Shown piece by piece: positions 3,001-35,330 of a stretch of DNA of 64,000 bases. The first letter of the stretch is position 1. Each line of letters opens with the position of its first letter. Origin of the DNA: Bacteroidales bacterium (lineage in GTDB: Bacteria; Bacteroidota; Bacteroidia; Bacteroidales; GCA-2748055). Under the pieces are notes generated by a model. The model worked only from the letters and a program-made list of their open reading frames with translations, did no database searches and was not told the origin of the DNA. The position numbers and the translations under genes were made by a program. The stretch lies in the NCBI GenBank assembly GCA_021738565.1, contig JAIPBT010000012.1, positions 41,260 to 105,259 of the forward strand. The letters are read 5' to 3'.

Positions 3001-4426
3001 CCACGTAATGCCTGTAATCCTGCCAGGAAGGTTTATTGCTCTGTGCATTGCCCTCCACTTCGTTGTAAACATCCGGACAAACCCTGGCACCCCCGACACC
3101 TCCGTCTGAATAGCCTTTGTCCATCAGTTCCTTCCTGAGACGGTAATTGAACTTGATGAGCCAGGATGCTTCATCCACGATATCAGGTATGCCGTTCCCG
3201 CATTCAGGCAGGTTCAGGTCACCATCTGCAAATCTTTCCGGGAAAAATTCATAGGTAAGCATCAAAAGTGGGGGGATCCGCTGGTGTGAAAAATAACCAT
3301 CCCAATCTCCTGCGTCATGGTACCATCCCACAACGTCGAGGACATTCCCTTCAGCAGCATCGCGGATCGCAGCCTGTGAACTGCCTCCTCCATCCCCGTT
3401 CTGCCAACTGGTATAGGGAAAATCAGAATAAAGCAACTGACCGGAGAAATCGGCGCCGTCATCACTGGTCACTTTTGTATTCTGATTCACCGGGCGGATG
3501 TAACCCTCTTCAGTGTATGGAGGTGCAAGTCGAATACCGCTGCGCTGGTGGTAAAGTGCGCGACCGACCGTGTAATATGCATTCCATAAAGCATCATTAC
3601 CGATCTTAAAAGGAAAGGAACAGCCCATTCCCTCAACCACAAGCTCATAGATTCCGTTATCCGTGATCGAAGTGAATTCGCATTCATAAACTTCCGCACC
3701 AAGGAAATTGCGGTCCGGCGTATCATTGGGCTGACCCGTTTCAGCATTCGTGGCAGACTTCCGCTTCTTCAGTACTCCTGAAAATACGGGATCAACAACC
3801 CCATCCTTATATACATAAAATGATTTCCCGTTGTATGCAGTAAGATCAAGTCCGCCCCTGTCTCCCATCCATTGGTAAACATACCCTAATTTCGGAGCAT
3901 TGGTCTCGTATCCGATGGTATTGACATGCACCGATTCACTTCTTAACTCCTTTTCATCAAAAGTGAAGCTCCATTCGCTTCCATTCGCTGCAAGGTTACC
4001 CGTTTGGAGGACATAGGTGTTCCCAGATTTAAGTTCATTTTCCAGGAACAGGTAGATAAAATGCTTAGATGCCCATGGTTTGGACCGCGGATCGAAGGAG
4101 TTACCGCCCCATGGCGCATCTTTTACAAACTCGGTGCCCTTGCTCTTGCGGCCTATATCAACCGGATGCAAAGCCGGGGAGTACTCTGCATCCGTATCGC
4201 TGGTTATTGTATAGCTTACAACGTCAGTGGCAGCGTCAATGGCAAGCCTGTCAACCTGAAGGTCGCTGGGATAAACAACCGTTCCGTCATCAAAGACCAC
4301 TAGCAGGATCTTGTTCGTAACGGGAGTTATGTCTACAATATCAGAGGACCTTGCCGGTAGAATAGAAACAAGTAAGCAAGTCAAAACAAATATAACCTTG
4401 TATAAAACTTTTTCAGAAGATCTCAT
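1..4426 (-). CDS. GH9 glycoside hydrolase with Ig-like and CBM-like modules, 3' end outside window
   Basis: Reading the minus strand from the ATG at 4426 gives one frame open to base 1 (at least 1475 codons, no stop); the C-terminus is missing. Residues 1-25 are a signal peptide. About 150-240 resemble the N-terminal Ig-like domain of GH9 cellulases. The GH9 catalytic module spans about 255-805. It has the DAGD motif (D371-D374) in GWYHDAGDWDG, the substrate-side segment DYFLGCNPL, and a late SENTVHQNAVYG segment whose E790 is the best candidate general acid. After it come Big_2-type Ig-like domains (about 815-985), a beta-rich CBM-like module (about 990-1150), another Ig-like domain (about 1155-1235), a second CBM-like module with FDLADLDMV (about 1240-1400) and a further Ig-like domain. 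GH9 enzymes hydrolyse beta-1,4-glucan or related glucans outside the cell. The exact substrate cannot be told. Confidence 0.9.
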   Translation of the reverse strand, partial: MRSSEKVLYKVIFVLTCLLVSILPARSSDIVDITPVTNKILLVVFDDGTVVYPSDLQVDRLAIDAATDVVSYTITSDTDAEYSPALHPVDIGRKSKGTEFVKDAPWGGNSFDPRSKPWASKHFIYLFLENELKSGNTYVLQTGNLAANGSEWSFTFDEKELRSESVHVNTIGYETNAPKLGYVYQWMGDRGGLDLTAYNGKSFYVYKDGVVDPVFSGVLKKRKSATNAETGQPNDTPDRNFLGAEVYECEFTSITDNGIYELVVEGMGCSFPFKIGNDALWNAYYTVGRALYHQRSGIRLAPPYTEEGYIRPVNQNTKVTSDDGADFSGQLLYSDFPYTSWQNGDGGGSSQAAIRDAAEGNVLDVVGWYHDAGDWDGYFSHQRIPPLLMLTYEFFPERFADGDLNLPECGNGIPDIVDEASWLIKFNYRLRKELMDKGYSDGGVGGARVCPDVYNEVEGNAQSNKPSWQDYRHYVVTQADPFMTYLYAGQAAQFALILEKLGKDPHAFPVEMLDHVDLQSMTRDTVDWEKEAIEAYAWASAPGNQPESNNNFGGPLGIYRMYAAASLYRLTNEPIYHDAALLELEEIRNKTRLAEDERYGVYTYLLADNYSKDRILEKDLVDVAAGNAEFNGMVAAEQRACRYGGVFDMPMLVGQATTPKIFEVMMAYGITGEKEYLDVAHTTADYFLGCNPLHTTWVTHLGPRPAEVGFHLDSRYNNDWVVYPGFIPYGPWSMSYGYDPYTWTIDGVEYEGGHGPWNKDWANFSQYPFMEEWPGHERWNSNIHAPLSSENTVHQNAVYGLLTYGFVNNRHNENATSAKPVTALNINKPETTLSKPGSIDTLKVTIDPEDATFPALAWTSSDSRIAHVDEMGRVTGVTSGTCTITCSTLDGSVEASCNVICDWEEIAVDSISVEPDSLSLVEGQTAYLDVFFYPDSATNNFIDWSYSVEGIVSVDENGILHAIAPGEVHVIATSLNSSRRDTCSVTVIAAYDYIVADFDSVVPVLSSPMPEVAQLYTPGGSSDIAAANPLKVASNNSEKVVQYNKPAGDYKLIGIVLPTDHPQDLDKFSQFRFKYFGDGIEAFYIQLKDTTGETGNEFTAPVAGENAWKLFAYDLDVNYALKQFNVFVNPTGNMPAMTCFFDDFILSGKTAEYFEGLTISDQSLEMSSGDEYVIVAESDGHPFSWISMDSTIAMVDQYGKVTAVSKGTVALKAVPLYGDIRECTVYVDGGTYIEPTTYETSMILDFEAYELDWSAGYGGYAWSTDTWSKIANPESSDINNSENVFSWERGAAFVGGFGIAFPPKSTRDWSRLSMMVYSTGETGSVQFEFFRDTSLLGKTQAEITVPANRWTQLVFDLADLDMVNREITKIQFMFGVGTQDIYTVYLDNVWLERGTDIPVTGTFLDTIAPVTLEKGNVLQLDATVSPVNASEPGISWESSVPTVASVNEAGLVTALDRGTTVISAASVSDPEVSAE

Positions 4427-5092
4427 ATAAATTGTTAATGATAGATGCATTAAAGTTAACATAATACGACAACAGTCAGTAATTCGTAATTATTCTCCCG
4501 ACTGATTGTCGGGATCATGAGCTCTTCGCCGCGGCGAATCGGTTCGTAATTCCTAAACGGTTATCACATTTATACATAGAGGAAAAGATCGGAATTATTG
4601 CCCCAGGTCCTTCGACGCGAGGTTCGGCGAAGCTCATAATTACGTATAGGAAAAGGGGGGAGACTATCCCGGGTCCTTCGACGCGAGGTTCGACGAAGCT
4701 CATAATTACGTATAGGAAAAGGGGGGAGACTATCCCGGGTCCTTCGACGCGAGGTTCGGCGAAGCTCACCTCTTCGCTCAGGAACCGGTCTTTATTGTCA
4801 GGTACCGATCTCGACAAGCTCGATCTTCCCACCTCACACCCCAACCAGCCGGTTCCTGAGCGAAGCGTTGCACTGAGCGTAGCGCTGTACTGAGCGAAGT
4901 CGAAGTGCCGAAGTGTCGAGGGATTGCTCGTTATTGAAATGTGTTAATAATAAAGTGAATACAAATCGCAAACTAAGAAATATATATTTATTTTACTATA
5001 TAAATATATATTTCTTTTTTTTGAAAAAATTTTGTTTGATGAATTGACCAATAGGGCGGGTTTTCTTTCAGACGCTTACTAAATCGAAATTT
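4427..5092. other. Intergenic region, repeats and AT-rich stretch
   Basis: This stretch lies between the GH9 start and the S9 peptidase stop. It holds a 66-bp tandem repeat, a further cluster of related GAGCGAAG/CTTCGAC words at about 4851-4921, and a very AT-rich block (about 4970-5045). The only long frame inside it is made of the repeats themselves, so I see no gene. Confidence 0.6.
4606..4768. repeat. 66-bp tandem repeat, about 2.5 copies
   Basis: The unit starts with GGTCCTTCGACGCGAGG at 4606, 4672 and 4738. Two full 66-bp units are followed by a partial third, with only single-base differences seen. Each unit contains an inverted CTTCG/CGAAG-rich core able to form a hairpin. Related words recur at 4851-4921 and at about 60190-60215, which suggests a dispersed intergenic repeat family. 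Confidence 0.85.
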
Positions 5093-29280: not shown

Positions 29281-29700
29281 ATGAGCTTTGAAACATCCGG
29301 AAGGATCACTGAGATTTTTCAAACACAACAGGTAACCGATAAATTCAAGAAACGAGAGTTTGTTATCGAAATCAAAGAGACCGGCAATGCCGGTTTTGAG
29401 TTTGTCGAGTATGTTAAATTCCAGACTGTCCAGGACAAGTGCAGCATGCTTGACGCGTTCAATATAGACGACAATGTTCGCGTTAGCTTCAACCTTCGCG
29501 GTCGCAAATGGGAAAAAGATGGACAGACCTCCTATTTTATAAATCTTGATGCGTGGAAGATTGAAAATGAACAATCAACAAATAATTCCCCCTCAGCAAC
29601 CGGATCGCAAGATCAGGATAGGTCTGACAATTTCTCCAGCGACATTACCCCTGGCGAACCGCCTGCCGACAGTTCGGGATTTGATGATCTCCCCTTTTAA
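29281..29700 (+). CDS. DUF3127 protein
   Basis: 139 aa. Residues 1-95 (GRITEIFQTQQVTDKFKKR; VEYVKFQTVQDKC; VSFNLRGRKWEKDG) form the DUF3127 domain, an OB-like fold common in Bacteroidota. The C-terminal 40 residues are polar and low in complexity (Ser, Asn, Asp), ending in an acidic GFDDLPF. That tail resembles the C-terminal tip of single-stranded DNA-binding proteins, which end in DDxPF. It suggests, by inference, ssDNA binding with recruitment of partners through the tip. Monocistronic. Confidence 0.88.
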   Translation: MSFETSGRITEIFQTQQVTDKFKKREFVIEIKETGNAGFEFVEYVKFQTVQDKCSMLDAFNIDDNVRVSFNLRGRKWEKDGQTSYFINLDAWKIENEQSTNNSPSATGSQDQDRSDNFSSDITPGEPPADSSGFDDLPF

Positions 29701-29703
29701 TTT

Positions 29704-29726
29704 TTGAACGATCAACCCTAATTACA
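29704..29726 (+). repeat. Left arm of inverted repeat around the kinase/TPR/peptide block
   Basis: TTGAACGATCAAC followed directly by CCTAATTACA. The same two words occur on the other strand at 31747-31782, separated there by a 12-base spacer. The segment between contains the small kinase, TPR protein and peptide genes. Confidence 0.6.
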
Positions 29727-29748
29727 TTGGGTTCGTCATCAATCCCGT

Positions 29749-30609
29749 TCAGTTCAGCAGTCCGGTATAATTTTCCTCCTGTCGCATTTCCAGATCCTTA
29801 CGCATACCGATCATTTTAACCGGCAGGCAGATCGTTATTCCCATTCGTTTAAGATCGGGGTTATTCAGGCTGACTGTTCCACCCATTTGACGGACCATGT
29901 CCCTTGTCAGTTTAAAAGCTATGCCGGTATTATCTAAATAATTATACCAATCATTCCCGTTAACCGTATTTTCAAAGATCATTTTTGCCCTCTCCTCGAG
30001 CAATTCATTTTTGTCGCTCACAATGGTTATATGTGCCTCCTTTTCTTCAGCGATTCTCAACCTCAATTCCACTACTCCCTTCTGCTGGTTTGTCATTGCA
30101 TTGATAACCAGGCTTTCCAGTATTCGCTGAAGGCGGAATCCATCGGTTTCAACGACGATCCGCTTGTACATCCATGGCAGCGTGAGCAACAGCACTGCAG
30201 AATATCGCAATTCTCTGATTGAATGTATATGGTTCTTCTGATAGATCACCTTCAGGAGATCATCAACAAACACCGTTTCCTTGCTGAAAGTCAGGTTATT
30301 TGTTTCCAGCAATGCAAAATCAATGATGTTGTCGACCACTTTCAGAAGCATATTGCTGTTCAGGGAGATATACTCAATGTACTCATCCCTTTCATTCTCA
30401 GAGATATTCTCACTCTTCAGCAGGTCCGAGAATCCCAGGATTGCATTCATTGGTGTCCTGATCTCATGCGAAACATTGGAAAGAAACCTGGTTTTGACCT
30501 GGGAGCCTGCATCCTTGTTTGCATGGTAGATCCCTTCCAGCCACCTTACCTTTTCCATCAGCATTTGATTCACCGATTTCAATTCCTCGTATGTGGGTTT
30601 TTCATTCAT
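29749..30609 (-). CDS. Small soluble histidine kinase with degenerate ATPase domain
   Basis: 286 aa with no signal or membrane segment. A short coiled coil (about 5-35) leads into an intact HisKA helix pair with SNVSHEIRTPMNA (H48). In the HATPase part an N-box-like LVINAMTNQQKG is present. The G1 DxGxG box is replaced by SDKNELLEE, and the G2 region reads NTGIAFKLTRDMVRQMGG. ATP binding may therefore be weak or lost, and the protein may act as a phosphotransfer or decoy partner. It lies 30 bp downstream of the TPR gene on the same strand, suggesting an operon with it and with the peptide gene further up. No response regulator is nearby. Confidence 0.75.
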   Translation of the reverse strand: MNEKPTYEELKSVNQMLMEKVRWLEGIYHANKDAGSQVKTRFLSNVSHEIRTPMNAILGFSDLLKSENISENERDEYIEYISLNSNMLLKVVDNIIDFALLETNNLTFSKETVFVDDLLKVIYQKNHIHSIRELRYSAVLLLTLPWMYKRIVVETDGFRLQRILESLVINAMTNQQKGVVELRLRIAEEKEAHITIVSDKNELLEERAKMIFENTVNGNDWYNYLDNTGIAFKLTRDMVRQMGGTVSLNNPDLKRMGITICLPVKMIGMRKDLEMRQEENYTGLLN

Positions 30610-30639
30610 TCTGAAGCTGTTGAAATACCTCTTTACTGT

Positions 30640-31392
30640 TTAATTTTTGAGTTTTCTCAGCAATTTTCTTGCCGCTCTCTTTTTATCACTGTTACTGGAT
30701 GCAATCCTGGCAAATTGTCTCCGCGCCCTTTCAGTATCATTCGTTGCCAGGTAGCACAATCCAAGGTACCATTCAGCCTGCTCAACATACAGGTTATCAT
30801 TGTGTTCGATAACCTTGTTGAAAGAAATTCCTGCATCGGTATACCTGTTCATCTCAAAATATGAGATACCAGTATACAGGTTGGTTGCCACCTGGTCGGG
30901 ATGCTGCTCGAGCACCTTTTCAAAATAAACAACGGCTTCAGCAAATTCGCCATCCAGGTACAATCGCTCAGCATGCTGAAGCATCAGCTCCAGTTCCGTG
31001 TCGTTCGACCTGTTAATGAGCGCAACCTCATATGGCTTGTAATATTTTTTAAGCAGATCCTTGTTCGAAATGGGCCTGTCTAAAAAAGATGCCATCCCAA
31101 TGGCAAGGATCAGGGCAATAGCTGCAGTGGCAGCATAGTGCCAGGGTTTTGTAAAGCGTATGGGCAATCTTGAATTGCCACTGCTCTGTTTGGTCTCTTT
31201 TCGCAGATCCCTGAGTTGATCTCTGAAATTCAATACTTCAGTATCAGCAAGTGCCTCATCGACTTCCCTGTAAAGTACCAGTTCTGCCTGTAATTCGGGA
31301 CTTGTCTCCAGGTCTGCTTCGAACCTCTTCATTTCCTTTTCTGAAAGGTCATGATCGAGGTACATCTGGATCATGTACTTGTCTCGTTTCAT
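30640..31392 (-). CDS. Single-pass TPR protein with anti-sigma-like topology
   Basis: 250 aa. A charged N-terminal domain of about 80 residues opens with YLDHDLSEKEMKRFEADL, which resembles the start of Bacteroidota anti-sigma factors and related TPR proteins. Then come one transmembrane helix (about 85-104, HYAATAAIALILAIGMASFL) and a C-terminal region (about 120-240) with TPR-like repeats (AERLYLDGEFAEAVVYFEKV; TNLYTGISYFEMNRYTDAGI). This puts the N-terminus in the cytoplasm and the TPRs in the periplasm. With the ECF sigma gene and the TPR-CHAT protease close by, it could hold the sigma factor or dock the protease. The anti-sigma role is inference. Confidence 0.7.
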   Translation of the reverse strand: MKRDKYMIQMYLDHDLSEKEMKRFEADLETSPELQAELVLYREVDEALADTEVLNFRDQLRDLRKETKQSSGNSRLPIRFTKPWHYAATAAIALILAIGMASFLDRPISNKDLLKKYYKPYEVALINRSNDTELELMLQHAERLYLDGEFAEAVVYFEKVLEQHPDQVATNLYTGISYFEMNRYTDAGISFNKVIEHNDNLYVEQAEWYLGLCYLATNDTERARRQFARIASSNSDKKRAARKLLRKLKN

Positions 31393-31596
31393 ATGATTAT
31401 GTAAATAAATTTTCCATGTAAATTCATCTAGAACTACACATCCATCAGATCACACTGATCCACAGATGTATTTATGTATTGCCATGCTGAAATAATTCAG
31501 CTCAGCGTACCATTTTCATTACTTAGTTCAGTTCGGGCGTTCCCAAATAAGGTATTTACAAGGTATTTAAATCTCTTTTCGGATTGTCCCGCAAGA

Positions 31597-31740
31597 TTAG
31601 TTGCCATCATCGGTAGCTCCGCCGGGAGGTACTAATAAGTCCGTTGGTTGATCAGAACCTCCTCCTTTTAAAAAATTCATCTCTACCATGGTCATTGCAT
31701 CCGTTGCAAAATTGTCGATTGTGAATTGTAAAGTTTTCAT
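31597..31740 (-). CDS. 47-aa peptide with double-glycine-like leader
   Basis: Frame: ATG at 31740, TAA at 31597. The N-terminal part ends in MTMVEMNFLKGGG (G26-G28), which fits the EMxxxxGG pattern of leader peptides of Bacteroidota secreted peptides. The C-terminal 19-20 residues (SDQPTDLLVPPGG...) are acidic, proline- and glycine-rich and have no cysteine. It is too short for a standard ORF cut-off. It is divergent from the TPR-CHAT protease gene and 204 bp upstream of the TPR gene. No transporter with a C39 peptidase and no radical SAM enzyme is in the window. Coding status is inferred from the leader-like motif, a clean start and stop, and position. Confidence 0.65.
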   Translation of the reverse strand: MKTLQFTIDNFATDAMTMVEMNFLKGGGSDQPTDLLVPPGGATDDGN

Positions 31741-31746
31741 GTCGTT

Positions 31747-31783
31747 TGTAATTAGGGTTTAACATATTTGTTGATCGTTCAAC
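31747..31783 (-). promoter_or_regulatory. Palindrome and right inverted-repeat arm between peptide and CHAT genes
   Basis: GTTGA-tcgt-TCAAC (31770-31783) is a short palindrome in the divergent intergenic region, 30 bp upstream of the peptide start. Together with TGTAATTAGGG (31747-31757) it forms the right arm of the inverted repeat whose left arm is at 29704. It could be an operator for either gene, by inference. Confidence 0.4.
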
Positions 31784-31955
31784 CCTTTATTCCCAAAAAC
31801 ATGGAAACGTTACCCAAAAAAAATAAAAAATTTTCATTTTATTTTTAATAGCTTAATAATCAAATATTTAATTATATATTTTTTAATGAAAAAAATGATA
31901 TATTTTGGAATCTATACTTGTTTTTATTTCATTTACATTGTATATATAGAATATA

Positions 31956-34748
31956 ATGAAAATAGTTTCAATATTCCTGTCATTTTTTCTTATCCATTAT
32001 TTTTTCTCTGCTCACGGGCAAATTGAGAAATCAACACCTGAGCAAAAAATTAATTCCCTGAGTCAAAAGGCATGGGATTATTTTTATCAAGGCAAGTATG
32101 ATAGTGCTGAATATTTTTATCAAAACACTATCAACTTACAAGAAGCTTATTTTGGGCATTATGATAATCATACAGCTGGAACATATTTAAATTTAGGAGC
32201 AGTATATAGAAGACTTTATCATTTGAAAGATGCACTGAAGTATTTAAATATTGCTGAGGCTATTTTTAAGCAGACTAGTCCAGATACCTACTTATTGGGA
32301 TATATTTATAATAATAAAGGAAACATCTATTATACTTATTCTGATTATGGCGAAAGCGAAAGGTATTACAAACAAAGTCTTAATCAGCTAATTAGAACAC
32401 AACAATATAATAATGACATATTTGAAATAGTATATTTAAACCTATTTAATCTTCTAATAACCCAAAATCGTTTAGAGGAAGCTGAGACTTTAATTGAGGA
32501 AATTAAAGAGATTGAAGTAATTGGAAAAAATTCATATTCCAAAAACAAATATTTAGCTCAAGCATATGATATATTAGGCCATAATGAATTAGCTCTAATC
32601 GAAATTAGTAAAGGTAAAGCGAAATTAGCATCGGATAAAAATTCAAGCCCTCATGACTTAATAGAATTTAATTTTAGAGAAGCATCTGTACATTTAAAAT
32701 TAAATAATCTTTCCAAAGCATTAGAGCTTTCTCTTGATAATATTGGTTTGTTCCAAAATATTAAGACAATTGATTATCAGAAATTGGCAGACACATATTG
32801 GTTAGTAGGTAATATTTATTTTATTAAAGAAGAGTATCGGAATTGTTACGATTGGTTATCAAATGTTATTAATGAGTTAAATGAGGCACTAAAGAATTCA
32901 GATATTACTCAAATAGACCCTACCTCCCGCATTTTGAAAAGTTTTTTTGTGGATCTAAATCACTTACAAGCTCAAACTTGTGTTGCTCTCCATGAAGAAA
33001 CTGGAAATAATAAATATTTAGAACAGTCACTCAAATTATATACTGAGATTATAGAAGTATTAAAGATCTTTAAAATTCATATGAGGAATGACAAAAGCAA
33101 ATTTAGTAACACAGAAAATAGATTATCATTAATTCATGAAGCAACCAATGTTGCATTGCAACTATATGAAACTAGTAAACAGGAAAAATATTTTAATAAG
33201 GCATTTAATTATGCAGAGAATTCCAAGTCATTTATTTTATTATCTCAAATAAAAGAAGTTGAAGCTATTCAATTTGCTGAATTACCAAAGAAAATACTCG
33301 ATAGAGAAACAAATTTATCTGGTGAAATATCAGGTTATGAAGAATTAATTTTTGAAGAAAATATTAGTCTTGAACCAGATAGTCTTAAACTAGCTACTTT
33401 GACCAATAAGTTATTTGAGCTTAAAGATGATTATAATGCATTACTAGACTCAATTGAGTTATTATATCCCAACTATTTTGAACTGAAATACAATCCCCAT
33501 TTTATAACGCCATCGGAGGCACAGTTCAGACTTCACAGGCATGAGGCACTTGTGGAATACTTACTTTCAGATTCCATACTCACCACGTTTGTTATAGACA
33601 AGGAGCAGATTGAAGCGTTCCAGCAGCGGCTGCCCGAAGGTTTTTCAAAGAAGTGCATCGACTATTTCACATTGATCCGTGACCAGAATTTCAGTCAGGA
33701 TGTACACCAGACATACAGGGATTTTGTTCGGCTCAGCAGGATGTTCCACGAGATCCTGGTTGCACCTGTACTGGAATTAACGGAAAGCAGGGAGATCACT
33801 TTTGTCCCCGACGGCGCCATCATGTACCTGCCGTTTGAAGCTTTTCTCACCGCGGATGTCGATGAGGAGTACATTGATTACCATTCCCTTCCTTACCTGA
33901 TCCACGATGTATCGGTAGGTTATTCATATTCTTCAACCCTGCTCTTCAATAAGAGGTTCAAAACAGGATCCCCGGAGCGGAAGGTACTGGCTTTTGCCCC
34001 ATCCTATAACAACCTTCTTGGTGAAGATCCGCTCGAATGGGACAGGCAAAGCAACCCGGATTTTCTGGTACCATTGCAGGGTGCTGTAGAAGAGGTGGAG
34101 TACATTTCAAAAAGGGTCCCCTCGGTAGCATTTATGGATTCAATGGCCTCCGAAGCGAATTTCAAAAAGCATGCATCCGATTATTACGTGTTGCACCTGG
34201 CCATGCATACCATATTGAATGACCAGGAACCGATGTATTCCAGGCTTGCATTTACCAGGAACTTTAATGACACAACGGAAGATCACGATCTGTTTACATA
34301 CGAGATCTACAATATGCAGCTCAATGCCGATATGGTGGTCCTGAGCTCCTGCAACAGCGGGTATGGCAAGATGCAGAAAGGGGAAGGAATGATGAGCATG
34401 GCAAGGGGTTTTATTTATGCCGGCTGTCCAAGCATTATCATGACCCTCTGGCAGGTTTCCGACAGGTCAAGCTCGGAACTCATGAGCAATTTCTACAAGC
34501 ACCTGAAAAAAGGCAAGAGCAAAAAAAGTGCATTAAGGCAGGCAAAAATTGATTACATCAGGGCATCGGACAATTTGAAATCCAATCCCTATTTCTGGTC
34601 CTCCTTCCTTGTAGTTGGCGATAACTCTCCCCTGTACATGACATCGGCGGGTTGGTACCTTGCAATGATCATTCTGGCGTTCCTGATCGTGGTATTGCTT
34701 GCAACCTATAAAAAACAGATCCGCAAAAAACTTAAAAAATTCAGATAG
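31956..34748 (+). CDS. TPR-CHAT protease, exported and membrane-anchored
   Basis: 930 aa. A signal peptide (MKIVSIFLSFFLIHYFFSAHG) is followed by TPR repeats over about 30-450 (TYLNLGAVYRRLYHLKDALKYL; YIYNNKGNIYYTYSDYGESE) and a helical linker. The CHAT caspase-like domain spans about 520-890. The His/Cys dyad is visible as LHLAMHT (H751) and LSSCNSGYG (C799), followed by MMSMARGFIYAGCPSIIMTLWQVSD. A C-terminal helix (about 900-919) and basic tail KKQIRKKLKKFR anchor it, so the protease should face the periplasm. The first 510 codons are strikingly AT-rich, while the CHAT half matches the genome. It ends 3 bp from the convergent ECF sigma gene. Confidence 0.93.
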   Translation: MKIVSIFLSFFLIHYFFSAHGQIEKSTPEQKINSLSQKAWDYFYQGKYDSAEYFYQNTINLQEAYFGHYDNHTAGTYLNLGAVYRRLYHLKDALKYLNIAEAIFKQTSPDTYLLGYIYNNKGNIYYTYSDYGESERYYKQSLNQLIRTQQYNNDIFEIVYLNLFNLLITQNRLEEAETLIEEIKEIEVIGKNSYSKNKYLAQAYDILGHNELALIEISKGKAKLASDKNSSPHDLIEFNFREASVHLKLNNLSKALELSLDNIGLFQNIKTIDYQKLADTYWLVGNIYFIKEEYRNCYDWLSNVINELNEALKNSDITQIDPTSRILKSFFVDLNHLQAQTCVALHEETGNNKYLEQSLKLYTEIIEVLKIFKIHMRNDKSKFSNTENRLSLIHEATNVALQLYETSKQEKYFNKAFNYAENSKSFILLSQIKEVEAIQFAELPKKILDRETNLSGEISGYEELIFEENISLEPDSLKLATLTNKLFELKDDYNALLDSIELLYPNYFELKYNPHFITPSEAQFRLHRHEALVEYLLSDSILTTFVIDKEQIEAFQQRLPEGFSKKCIDYFTLIRDQNFSQDVHQTYRDFVRLSRMFHEILVAPVLELTESREITFVPDGAIMYLPFEAFLTADVDEEYIDYHSLPYLIHDVSVGYSYSSTLLFNKRFKTGSPERKVLAFAPSYNNLLGEDPLEWDRQSNPDFLVPLQGAVEEVEYISKRVPSVAFMDSMASEANFKKHASDYYVLHLAMHTILNDQEPMYSRLAFTRNFNDTTEDHDLFTYEIYNMQLNADMVVLSSCNSGYGKMQKGEGMMSMARGFIYAGCPSIIMTLWQVSDRSSSELMSNFYKHLKKGKSKKSALRQAKIDYIRASDNLKSNPYFWSSFLVVGDNSPLYMTSAGWYLAMIILAFLIVVLLATYKKQIRKKLKKFR

Positions 34749-34751
34749 TAT

Positions 34752-35330
34752 TTATTCTTCCATCATATCACGGTAATCCTGGTCCTCCCTGATCCTGTTG
34801 ATAAGGTACTCTTTGCAGAAATGCCTTCTCTTCCTGACATACGTATCGCTCCGGAAACCCAATTGCTCTGCTATCTCCCTGGCAGACAAATCCTGGACAG
34901 TAAGTTTTAGTATTTCCTGGCAATCCCCGGGAATCAGTTTTAAATTTCGCTGGTACACTGCAAGACGCAGGTCCTTGTCCTGCACAGGCGGGGGTTCCTC
35001 AAATTCAATGAAATCCTCCATCTCCCTGTCAAGCCTGCCAACCTCCATTTTGCGGGAATCCCTTAATTTCTTTAACAACAACAACCGGTTTATGGAATAC
35101 AAATAGGTGGAAAAAGTGCTGGTAAGCTGAAATTCCTTCTCCTCACGAATCCGTTTGAAAATTATGATGAGGGATTCCTGGAAAATATCTTCTGCATCGT
35201 CTTCACTGCAACTGTTTGAAAGCACCATCCTGCTTACCCTGTCGAAATTGGTCGAATAGATGAAGTGGATTACATGGTTGTCTCTCCTGCGGAGACCATG
35301 GATTATCTCTTCATCGGAAAACCTCTTCAT
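34752..35330 (-). CDS. ECF-type RNA polymerase sigma factor
   Basis: 192 aa. Region 2 (about 15-95) contains NSCSEDDAEDIFQESLIIIFKRI and YLYSINRLLLLKKLR, the core-binding and -10-recognition helices. Region 4 (about 130-180) has the HTH LTVQDLSAREIAEQLGF. Its length is normal for ECF sigma factors. It is convergent with the TPR-CHAT gene, 3 bp apart, and no anti-sigma gene is directly downstream. The TPR protein at 30640 is the nearest candidate partner. The target promoters are unknown. Confidence 0.9.
   Translation of the reverse strand: MKRFSDEEIIHGLRRRDNHVIHFIYSTNFDRVSRMVLSNSCSEDDAEDIFQESLIIIFKRIREEKEFQLTSTFSTYLYSINRLLLLKKLRDSRKMEVGRLDREMEDFIEFEEPPPVQDKDLRLAVYQRNLKLIPGDCQEILKLTVQDLSAREIAEQLGFRSDTYVRKRRHFCKEYLINRIREDQDYRDMMEE

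Follow-up and report, generated by a model that had tools for sequence, protein, structure and literature searches.

We describe here a gene module that recurs through Bacteroidota and joins an extracytoplasmic function (ECF) sigma factor, a membrane protein with tetratricopeptide repeats (TPR) that resembles an anti-sigma factor, and a TPR-CHAT protein, as found in a stretch of 64,000 nucleotides from a Bacteroidales bacterium (contig JAIPBT010000012.1, positions 41,260 to 105,259; hereafter the window). The module is real and widespread, and the view that sigma, TPR anti-sigma and CHAT form one conserved unit is well supported by the comparisons given below. No description of a sigma/anti-sigma/CHAT module was found in the literature searched, in which "ECF sigma" and "CHAT domain" occurred jointly only in the paper on Csx29. 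As for its function, the best reading is that the CHAT protein would be the site-1 protease of the anti-sigma, to which we give an even chance. In the window the three core genes are accompanied by the genes of a 47-aa peptide and a histidine-kinase-like protein, all five lying where the original prediction, made from the letters of the DNA, had placed them, as borne out by the open reading frames and by Pfam and NCBIfam. The genes and their main elements are as follows (labels beginning with L, G, C or P are our own handles for loci, genomes, contigs and proteins):

29749-30609, minus strand: histidine-kinase-like protein, soluble, with the HisKA histidine kept and degenerate ATP-binding boxes (Pfam; 12-row alignment)
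30640-31392, minus strand: membrane TPR anti-sigma-like protein, 250 aa, with an anti-sigma-like helical N-terminus, a transmembrane helix, a linker and TPRs predicted to be periplasmic (TPRs by Pfam)
31006-31011, minus strand: Arg128-Ser129 of the periplasmic linker of the anti-sigma, candidate site-1 cleavage point (conservation)
31081-31137, minus strand: transmembrane helix of the TPR anti-sigma, residues 86-104 (hydropathy)
31597-31740, minus strand: double-glycine leader peptide, 47 aa, heading the anti-sigma row and divergent to CHAT
31787-31813, minus strand: promoter-like element GTAACG-N14-GGAATAA, directed at the peptide/anti-sigma/kinase row (conservation among family loci)
31956-34748, plus strand: TPR-CHAT protein, 930 aa, with a signal-like N-terminus, a TPR superhelix at about 22-430, a CHAT domain at 593-889, a transmembrane helix at 898-916 and a basic tail
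34206-34208, plus strand: codon of the predicted catalytic His751 (alignment column)
34350-34352, plus strand: codon of the predicted catalytic Cys799 (alignment column)
34647-34703, plus strand: C-terminal transmembrane helix of the CHAT protein, residues 898-916 (hydropathy 2.64), followed by the basic tail KKQIRKKLKKFR
34752-35330, minus strand: ECF sigma factor, 192 aa (NCBIfam sigma70-ECF above cut-off)

The CHAT and sigma genes are convergent, with stops 3 bp apart as had been noticed originally, and the genes of the peptide, the TPR protein and the kinase form one row divergent from CHAT. This row is flanked by a 17-bp inverted repeat (94% paired; 29568-29584 and 31765-31781).

The arrangement is well kept in close relatives. 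Of 27 genomes from the same genus or family, 26 have a strong homologue of the sigma factor (E <= 2.5e-40), the miss being G001, which is 68% complete. The CHAT gene is on the stretch in 14 of the 19 family neighbourhoods (12 kb from sigma in L044); four of the five without it (L038, L042, L047 and L053) reach a contig end near the expected place, and L048 has no CHAT on the stretch although the contig continues. All five genes are found together in ten relatives (L035, L036, L037, L040, L041, L045, L046, L049, L050 and L051), with other genes between CHAT and sigma in L040, L041 and L046; in L040 a CotH protein is encoded by one of these, and the far side of sigma has a gene for an M64 peptidase. 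The original prediction had proposed co-occurrence in related genomes as its own check, which it withstood: the recurrence of the five genes in ten relatives, together with the peptide in 12/12 family loci (see below), makes the association far more than chance.

The core of the module extends through the phylum. A locus of another family, L062, has kinase, TPR protein, peptide, CHAT and sigma in the same layout as the window, and CHAT is present in 10 of 21 additional loci that surround weaker homologues of sigma, with an eleventh, L060, cut by the contig end. A scan of the genome collection with the sigma protein gave two loci, and L034, from the flavobacterial Aquimarina, has all three core genes. 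When a sample of 198 genomes of the phylum was searched with an anti-sigma profile, 15 genomes, the own one included, were matched at E <= 1e-25, and CHAT was present within about 9 kb in 14 of the 20 neighbourhoods fetched (in L107 as two opposed pieces), these 20 coming from 23 places of which the own one was left out, G163:C22 was omitted and G257:C41 was added later as L177. A CHAT profile matched 70 of the 198 genomes at E <= 1e-60, including all 15 with the anti-sigma (Fisher p 5.8e-8; 1.6e-7 without the own genome), figures that are rough, since relatedness makes the genomes non-independent and scoring was limited to 13 or four candidates per genome. Starting from CHAT, 40 loci were picked by hand, 30 of them mostly reaching the transmembrane end of the model and 10 falling short of it. 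Sigma and TPR anti-sigma were both on the stretch in 20 of the 30, among which L168 is counted loosely (its sigma is separated from CHAT by 4 kb and from the TPR gene by 8 kb); L167 has a sigma-TPR-CHAT row whose sigma was detected by Pfam only (region 4, 36 bits), L174 looks like such a row by eye, with a candidate sigma-like reading frame, and in L148 the TPR gene is present and the contig ends. Neither partner was found by profile in 7 of the 30 (L169-L173, L175, and L165, which has no transmembrane helix). Among the 10 loci chosen for a CHAT protein without this helix, sigma and TPR are near in six (L181, weakly, and L183-L187). The CHAT proteins of L169-L173 and L175 have about 900 aa and a C-terminal transmembrane helix, and may go with another partner.

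The CHAT protein has the sequence features expected of a protease. Its domain matches PF12770 (clan CD) with E 4.6e-56 and 190.8 bits against a cut-off of 24, and the residues corresponding to H751 and C799, originally described as intact, are His and Cys in 81/81 covering proteins of an alignment of 82 rows, one of which is a fragment gapped at the catalytic column. The secreted and C-terminally anchored form that had been proposed is also predicted from the sequence, where a hydrophobic signal-like N-terminal stretch is followed at the other end by the transmembrane helix 898-916 and the basic tail; a C-terminal transmembrane helix is predicted in 68 of the 81 other CHAT proteins, the tail charge being net positive in 66 and zero in two. 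The TPR half is less conserved than the rest of the module: between the window and L035 identity is 38% in this half, 68% in the catalytic half, 71% in sigma and 66% in the anti-sigma. In addition, the GC content at third codon positions is 0.20 in the TPR half of the window gene versus 0.57 in the catalytic half, with a comparable gap in L035, L036, L040 and L045 and none in L046. Such a fast-diverging sensor half would be compatible with a changing ligand, of which it is no proof. The overall GC content of the gene (31956-34748) is likewise a mosaic, about 0.28 in the TPR half versus 0.46 in the catalytic half, and the low-GC part starts within the upstream intergenic region. A phmmer search with the single CHAT-domain sequence gave no match in the PDB; a profile of 16 CHAT domains gave DdvA as the best match (E 0.004) and Csx29 chains at E 0.4-0.7. 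The transfer of the Arg-binding Asp of separase onto the CHAT proteins was attempted and the pocket was not established. No second match to the CHAT protein exists in the own genome at E up to 0.001. In three distant loci (L056, L064 and L066) CHAT has as neighbour a protein carrying the sorting tail of type IX secretion, which could be an envelope client or target.

The sigma factor exceeds the cut-off of the NCBIfam model sigma70-ECF (TIGR02937; 51.1 bits vs 42.9) and stays below those of Pfam (Sigma70_r2, E 4.1e-5, 23.7 bits vs 24; region 4, 14.6 vs 25.7), where no region 3 is listed at E up to 1; regions 2 and 4 without region 3 are the composition of an ECF sigma factor. The TPR protein matches the NCBIfam antisigma model with E 3.3e-7 and 30.5 bits, under its cut-off of 100. 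Its predicted architecture would suit a single-pass anti-sigma, with four N-terminal helices, also present in the AlphaFold2 model (mean predicted local distance difference test, pLDDT, 78.0; predicted template modelling score 0.56), the transmembrane helix, the linker and the TPRs. The TPR gene is co-directional with sigma at no more than 300 bp in 47 of 102 stretches, often overlapping it, and directly adjoins it in distant loci; in one genome (L060 3146-4492, P0185 in the protein database) sigma and TPR anti-sigma form one in-frame reading frame of 448 aa. A relative of 513 aa, P0189, apparently has several tandem anti-sigma-like N-terminal repeats before one transmembrane helix and TPRs, and might bind more than one sigma factor. 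The own genome has a paralogous ECF sigma (31%) at L072 9627-19686 (C72), after which come a TPR protein and an ABC exporter of C39 type, with a C25 gingipain-like gene a few genes further along; L063, L069 and L073 also have a sigma with a similar-sized reading frame of 728-730 aa.

The linker of the anti-sigma points to a candidate site of cleavage. Ten columns are invariant in 120 aligned anti-sigma homologues, and R128 (120/120) is the sole one between the transmembrane helix and the TPRs. Among 72 diverse linkers, Arg is followed by Ser, Gly, Ala, Thr, Asn or Asp in 68 (shuffled mean 37.7, maximum 50) and by Ser, Gly or Ala in 60 (shuffled mean 19.2, maximum 29); three of the 75 proteins had been left out, L033 being a duplicate of L037, L054 misread by the transmembrane finder and L108_14988 a plain TPR protein. 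The first match is 19-27 residues past the predicted transmembrane helix in 57 of the 68, and in two others, L113 and L181, the only match is an Arg that immediately follows this helix. L156 and L162 have Lys-Ser or Lys-Gly at the corresponding position, and L159 and L160 break the pattern. The anti-sigma of L113 (8688-9428) has no linker Arg at the usual place though a CHAT gene is adjacent. In the AlphaFold2 model residue 128 is in coil, with a mean pLDDT of 61 over its ten-residue block. The distance of the Arg from the helix, and the order of CHAT domain, transmembrane helix and basic tail in the protease, predict that the protease and the linker are on the same membrane face in most CHAT proteins examined; both the CHAT domain and the TPR domain of the anti-sigma would be in the periplasm. 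We take Arg128-Ser129 as a candidate CHAT cut site, a proposal about as probable as its negation.

Taken together, these features are consistent with a mechanism in which the ECF sigma would be held by the membrane TPR anti-sigma until the CHAT protease, with its predicted inner-membrane anchor and periplasmic orientation, cuts the latter after the linker Arg and frees the sigma; for this mechanism we consider the chances evenly balanced. The N-terminal helices of the anti-sigma would bind sigma, and the TPR superhelix of the CHAT protein would sense a ligand, within the order probably the double-glycine peptide after its export. Once activated, the CHAT domain, held at the membrane beside its substrate, would cut at Arg128-Ser129, an M50 site-2 protease would clear the stub, and the cytoplasmic fragment would be degraded as in the case of RseA. 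The free sigma could then transcribe the peptide/anti-sigma/kinase row from GTAACG-N14-GGAATWA, which would constitute a positive loop with a built-in anti-sigma feedback.

The peptide had no match in Pfam or NCBIfam (E up to 1) and none elsewhere in the own genome (E up to 10). It is present in 12/12 family loci in which the region upstream of CHAT was available, window included, with a variable core and a conserved leader that in most of them reads F...A[MI]...E[ML]N[FY]L[KR]GG. An initial, narrow pattern had matches in only these 12 loci across 1.8 Mb, and the restriction of the peptide to one family was rejected when a wider pattern showed that five more families of the order (L054, L055, L061, L062 and L068) have double-glycine peptides as well, 39-70 aa long and encoded divergently to CHAT; the same pattern found none by CHAT in L056, L057, L064 and L066, of other families of the order. 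Within 1 kb upstream, 16/78 CHAT genes have such a peptide, always divergent, versus 16/667 other genes (p 7e-9), some of the latter peptides being the same ones as counted at CHAT. The 16 correspond to 16/20 loci inside the order and 0/58 outside it. L156 has one double-glycine peptide 1.5 kb off on the far side of CHAT. L061 has two near-identical double-glycine peptides in tandem (4286-4483 and 4492-4704), encoded divergently to CHAT, which share their leader and differ in their middle parts, and two double-glycine leader peptides in L073 (3688-3858 and 4038-4184), about 5 kb from the paralogous sigma, may go with the exporter-type locus. In the window, a stretch at 29704-29728, after DUF3127, resembles the leader region of the 47-aa peptide (TTGAACGATCAAC, CCCTAATTACA). 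C39 ABC exporters are the usual processing route for double-glycine leaders, and the own genome has two C39-domain proteins (reading frames of 743 and 730 aa), neither of them beside the peptide; one of the two was scanned with Pfam and is an ABC exporter.

The peptide had originally been offered as one of two targets of the protease. As a general CHAT substrate it is to be rejected, with no such peptide found by the wider pattern within 1 kb upstream of any of the 58 CHAT genes outside the order and the linker Arg occurring phylum-wide, and its distribution across six families of the order, with none found beyond, makes a lineage-specific ligand likelier; the peptide as ligand within the order is a strong lead. 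A role as substrate inside the order is conceivable, since in 14 of the 18 peptides, that of the window among them, the residue before Gly-Gly is Lys or Arg (those of L035, L049, L050 and L062 have no basic residue there). This is the same basic-small pair as in the anti-sigma linker and is suggestive of a second CHAT substrate, although basic residues before Gly-Gly are common in leaders of this phylum. In its widest form, our proposal would be a peptide-autoinduced switch, in which a membrane TPR-CHAT receptor-protease senses the secreted double-glycine peptide of its divergent neighbour gene and cuts the anti-sigma after a single conserved Arg; this would be a phylum-wide periplasmic cousin of Craspase and a Gram-negative quorum or self-recognition circuit, and would explain part of the missing anti-sigma control of Bacteroidota. 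We hold this wide form to be tentative and rather improbable as a whole, its chances having risen with the peptides of the five further families. If true, such a circuit would unite pheromone sensing, caspase-like proteolysis and sigma release.

The promoter-like element, GGGTAACGTTT-N11-GGAATWAA, is upstream of the peptide once per locus and at fixed spacing in 11 of the 12 family loci, L051 being without it. The own genome has one perfect site and, with up to three mismatches, 11 sites, whereas the reversed control has 13, so that only the perfect site exceeds chance; a three-mismatch site near one C39 gene (C49) was judged accidental. A single perfect site without an excess of near matches makes the element look like a dedicated autoregulatory site, and its conservation suggests autoregulation by a sigma factor that would use it. 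The kinase adjoins the TPR gene in ten family loci and matches HisKA (E 3.5e-16) and HATPase_c (E 2.7e-8). The claim that it is degenerate holds for its ATP-binding boxes and fails for the HisKA histidine, which is kept: in the 12-row alignment the N and G boxes of the window protein, judged by their motifs, are degenerate, while those of L049-L051 are intact. The window kinase is probably an accessory protein that has lost catalysis.

Other explanations of the same data have to be weighed. The CHAT protein could be a receptor whose effect on the anti-sigma comes from binding and not from cutting, or it could cut another envelope protein, the sigma/anti-sigma pair being its output or co-regulated with it, which we consider possible though on balance doubtful. 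The linker Arg is kept where no CHAT gene is near and is lacking in L113 beside one, a separase-type Arg pocket was not confirmed and sorting-tail proteins adjoin CHAT in the three loci mentioned above, all of which would suit such a protein; however, a His and a Cys kept in every covering row are unexpected for a pure binding protein, and the Arg-small pair is conserved among otherwise dissimilar linkers. It is unlikely, in our opinion, that CHAT cleaves the double-glycine peptide, perhaps at Lys/Arg-Gly, and that the processed peptide relieves sigma. The peptide is present in all the family loci, its occurrence divergent to CHAT in 5 of 9 loci of the other families of the order has raised the chances of this explanation, and the basic residue before Gly-Gly resembles the pair of the linker, but no such peptide was found beside the 58 CHAT genes outside the order, four peptides have no such residue, and the C39 proteins of the own genome, one of them an ABC exporter, could do the processing.

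That the locus would be a phage-defence or regulated-cell-death cassette of Craspase type, with sigma as reporter arm, we regard as quite improbable. The closest fold to the CHAT protein is Csx29, and its TPR half is fast-diverging and of unusual composition in the own genome, both of which would speak for such a cassette. However, none of the five proteins matched a PADLOC-DB model, ten flanking proteins gave only partial or weak matches of generic type, and the retention of sigma in nearly all the relatives and the shared flanks of the inspected family loci are unlike mobile defence islands. Finally, the genes could be unrelated and held together by slow rearrangement, since the housekeeping flanks (DUF3127, FKBP, MscS, AsnC and TrmH) are syntenic in the family as well; outside the family these flanks are gone, yet sigma, TPR and CHAT are still together in several orientations, and we give this explanation hardly any credit.

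The protease Csx29 is described as cutting Csx30, the protein that keeps the ECF sigma factor CASP-sigma in check (PMC10028731). The window CHAT protein shares its TPR-CHAT fold, Csx29 being its best structural match, and the likeness would extend to the logic, as in type III-E systems a TPR-CHAT protease also has a substrate restraining an ECF sigma. Csx29 works with the RNA-guided Cas7-11, whereas the protein described here has a signal-like start and a transmembrane helix, and the inhibitor would be a membrane TPR anti-sigma. No Cas7-11 or Csx30 model of PADLOC-DB was matched by the 15 window proteins scanned, and no search aimed at CRISPR arrays was made. Of the original idea of a Csx29-like logic in a CRISPR-free locus, the parallel in fold and logic stands and the peptide as general substrate does not. 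In its membrane topology the system resembles RseA/DegS/RseP, with a single-pass anti-sigma that has a cytoplasmic sigma-binding end and a periplasmic domain (here predicted); in the general scheme of regulated intramembrane proteolysis, as outlined in the same paper, a periplasmic site-1 cut precedes site-2 clearance (PMC10028731). Here the role of site-1 enzyme, which there belongs to the serine protease DegS, would fall to a cysteine protease of clan CD that is tied to the membrane and has a TPR sensor. Separase also combines helical repeats with a caspase-fold domain like CHAT, and it cuts after Arg in an unstructured stretch, according to part of PMC10317155. It differs in being eukaryotic, in having cohesin as target and in its Arg-binding Asp, which is not matched in CHAT proteins. 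The RRNPP receptors (NprR, Rap), which are cytoplasmic and not proteases, resemble the protein in fold only, and similar scores are obtained with other TPR superhelices.

DdvA (PDB 8rot and 8rw5; Myxococcus xanthus by name; Foldseek rank 9), the PDB sequence that best matches the CHAT-domain profile, also brings CHAT and a transmembrane anti-sigma into one system, acting on the ECF sigma DdvS: its entries are titled transmembrane anti-sigma factor and its molecule is named CHAT domain-containing protein. DdvS turns active once DdvA is inactivated, as stated in an excerpt of PMC4374960. DdvA carries CHAT and anti-sigma on a single chain, whereas the present module has them as two separate membrane proteins; the module shares its logic with Csx29 and DdvA and is to be filed under neither of them. 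One survey (PMC7406223) reports that only 6% of the ECF sigma factors of Bacteroidetes have a class I anti-sigma nearby, compared to 32% on average, and leaves the ECF control of this phylum open. The module would be a concrete mode of such control, with a named protease and substrate, a candidate cut site, a candidate peptide signal and a promoter-like element. Moreover, the CRISPR-linked CHAT/sigma logic may be one instance of a broader association between CHAT proteases and ECF sigma factors, of which DdvA would be the one-chain form.
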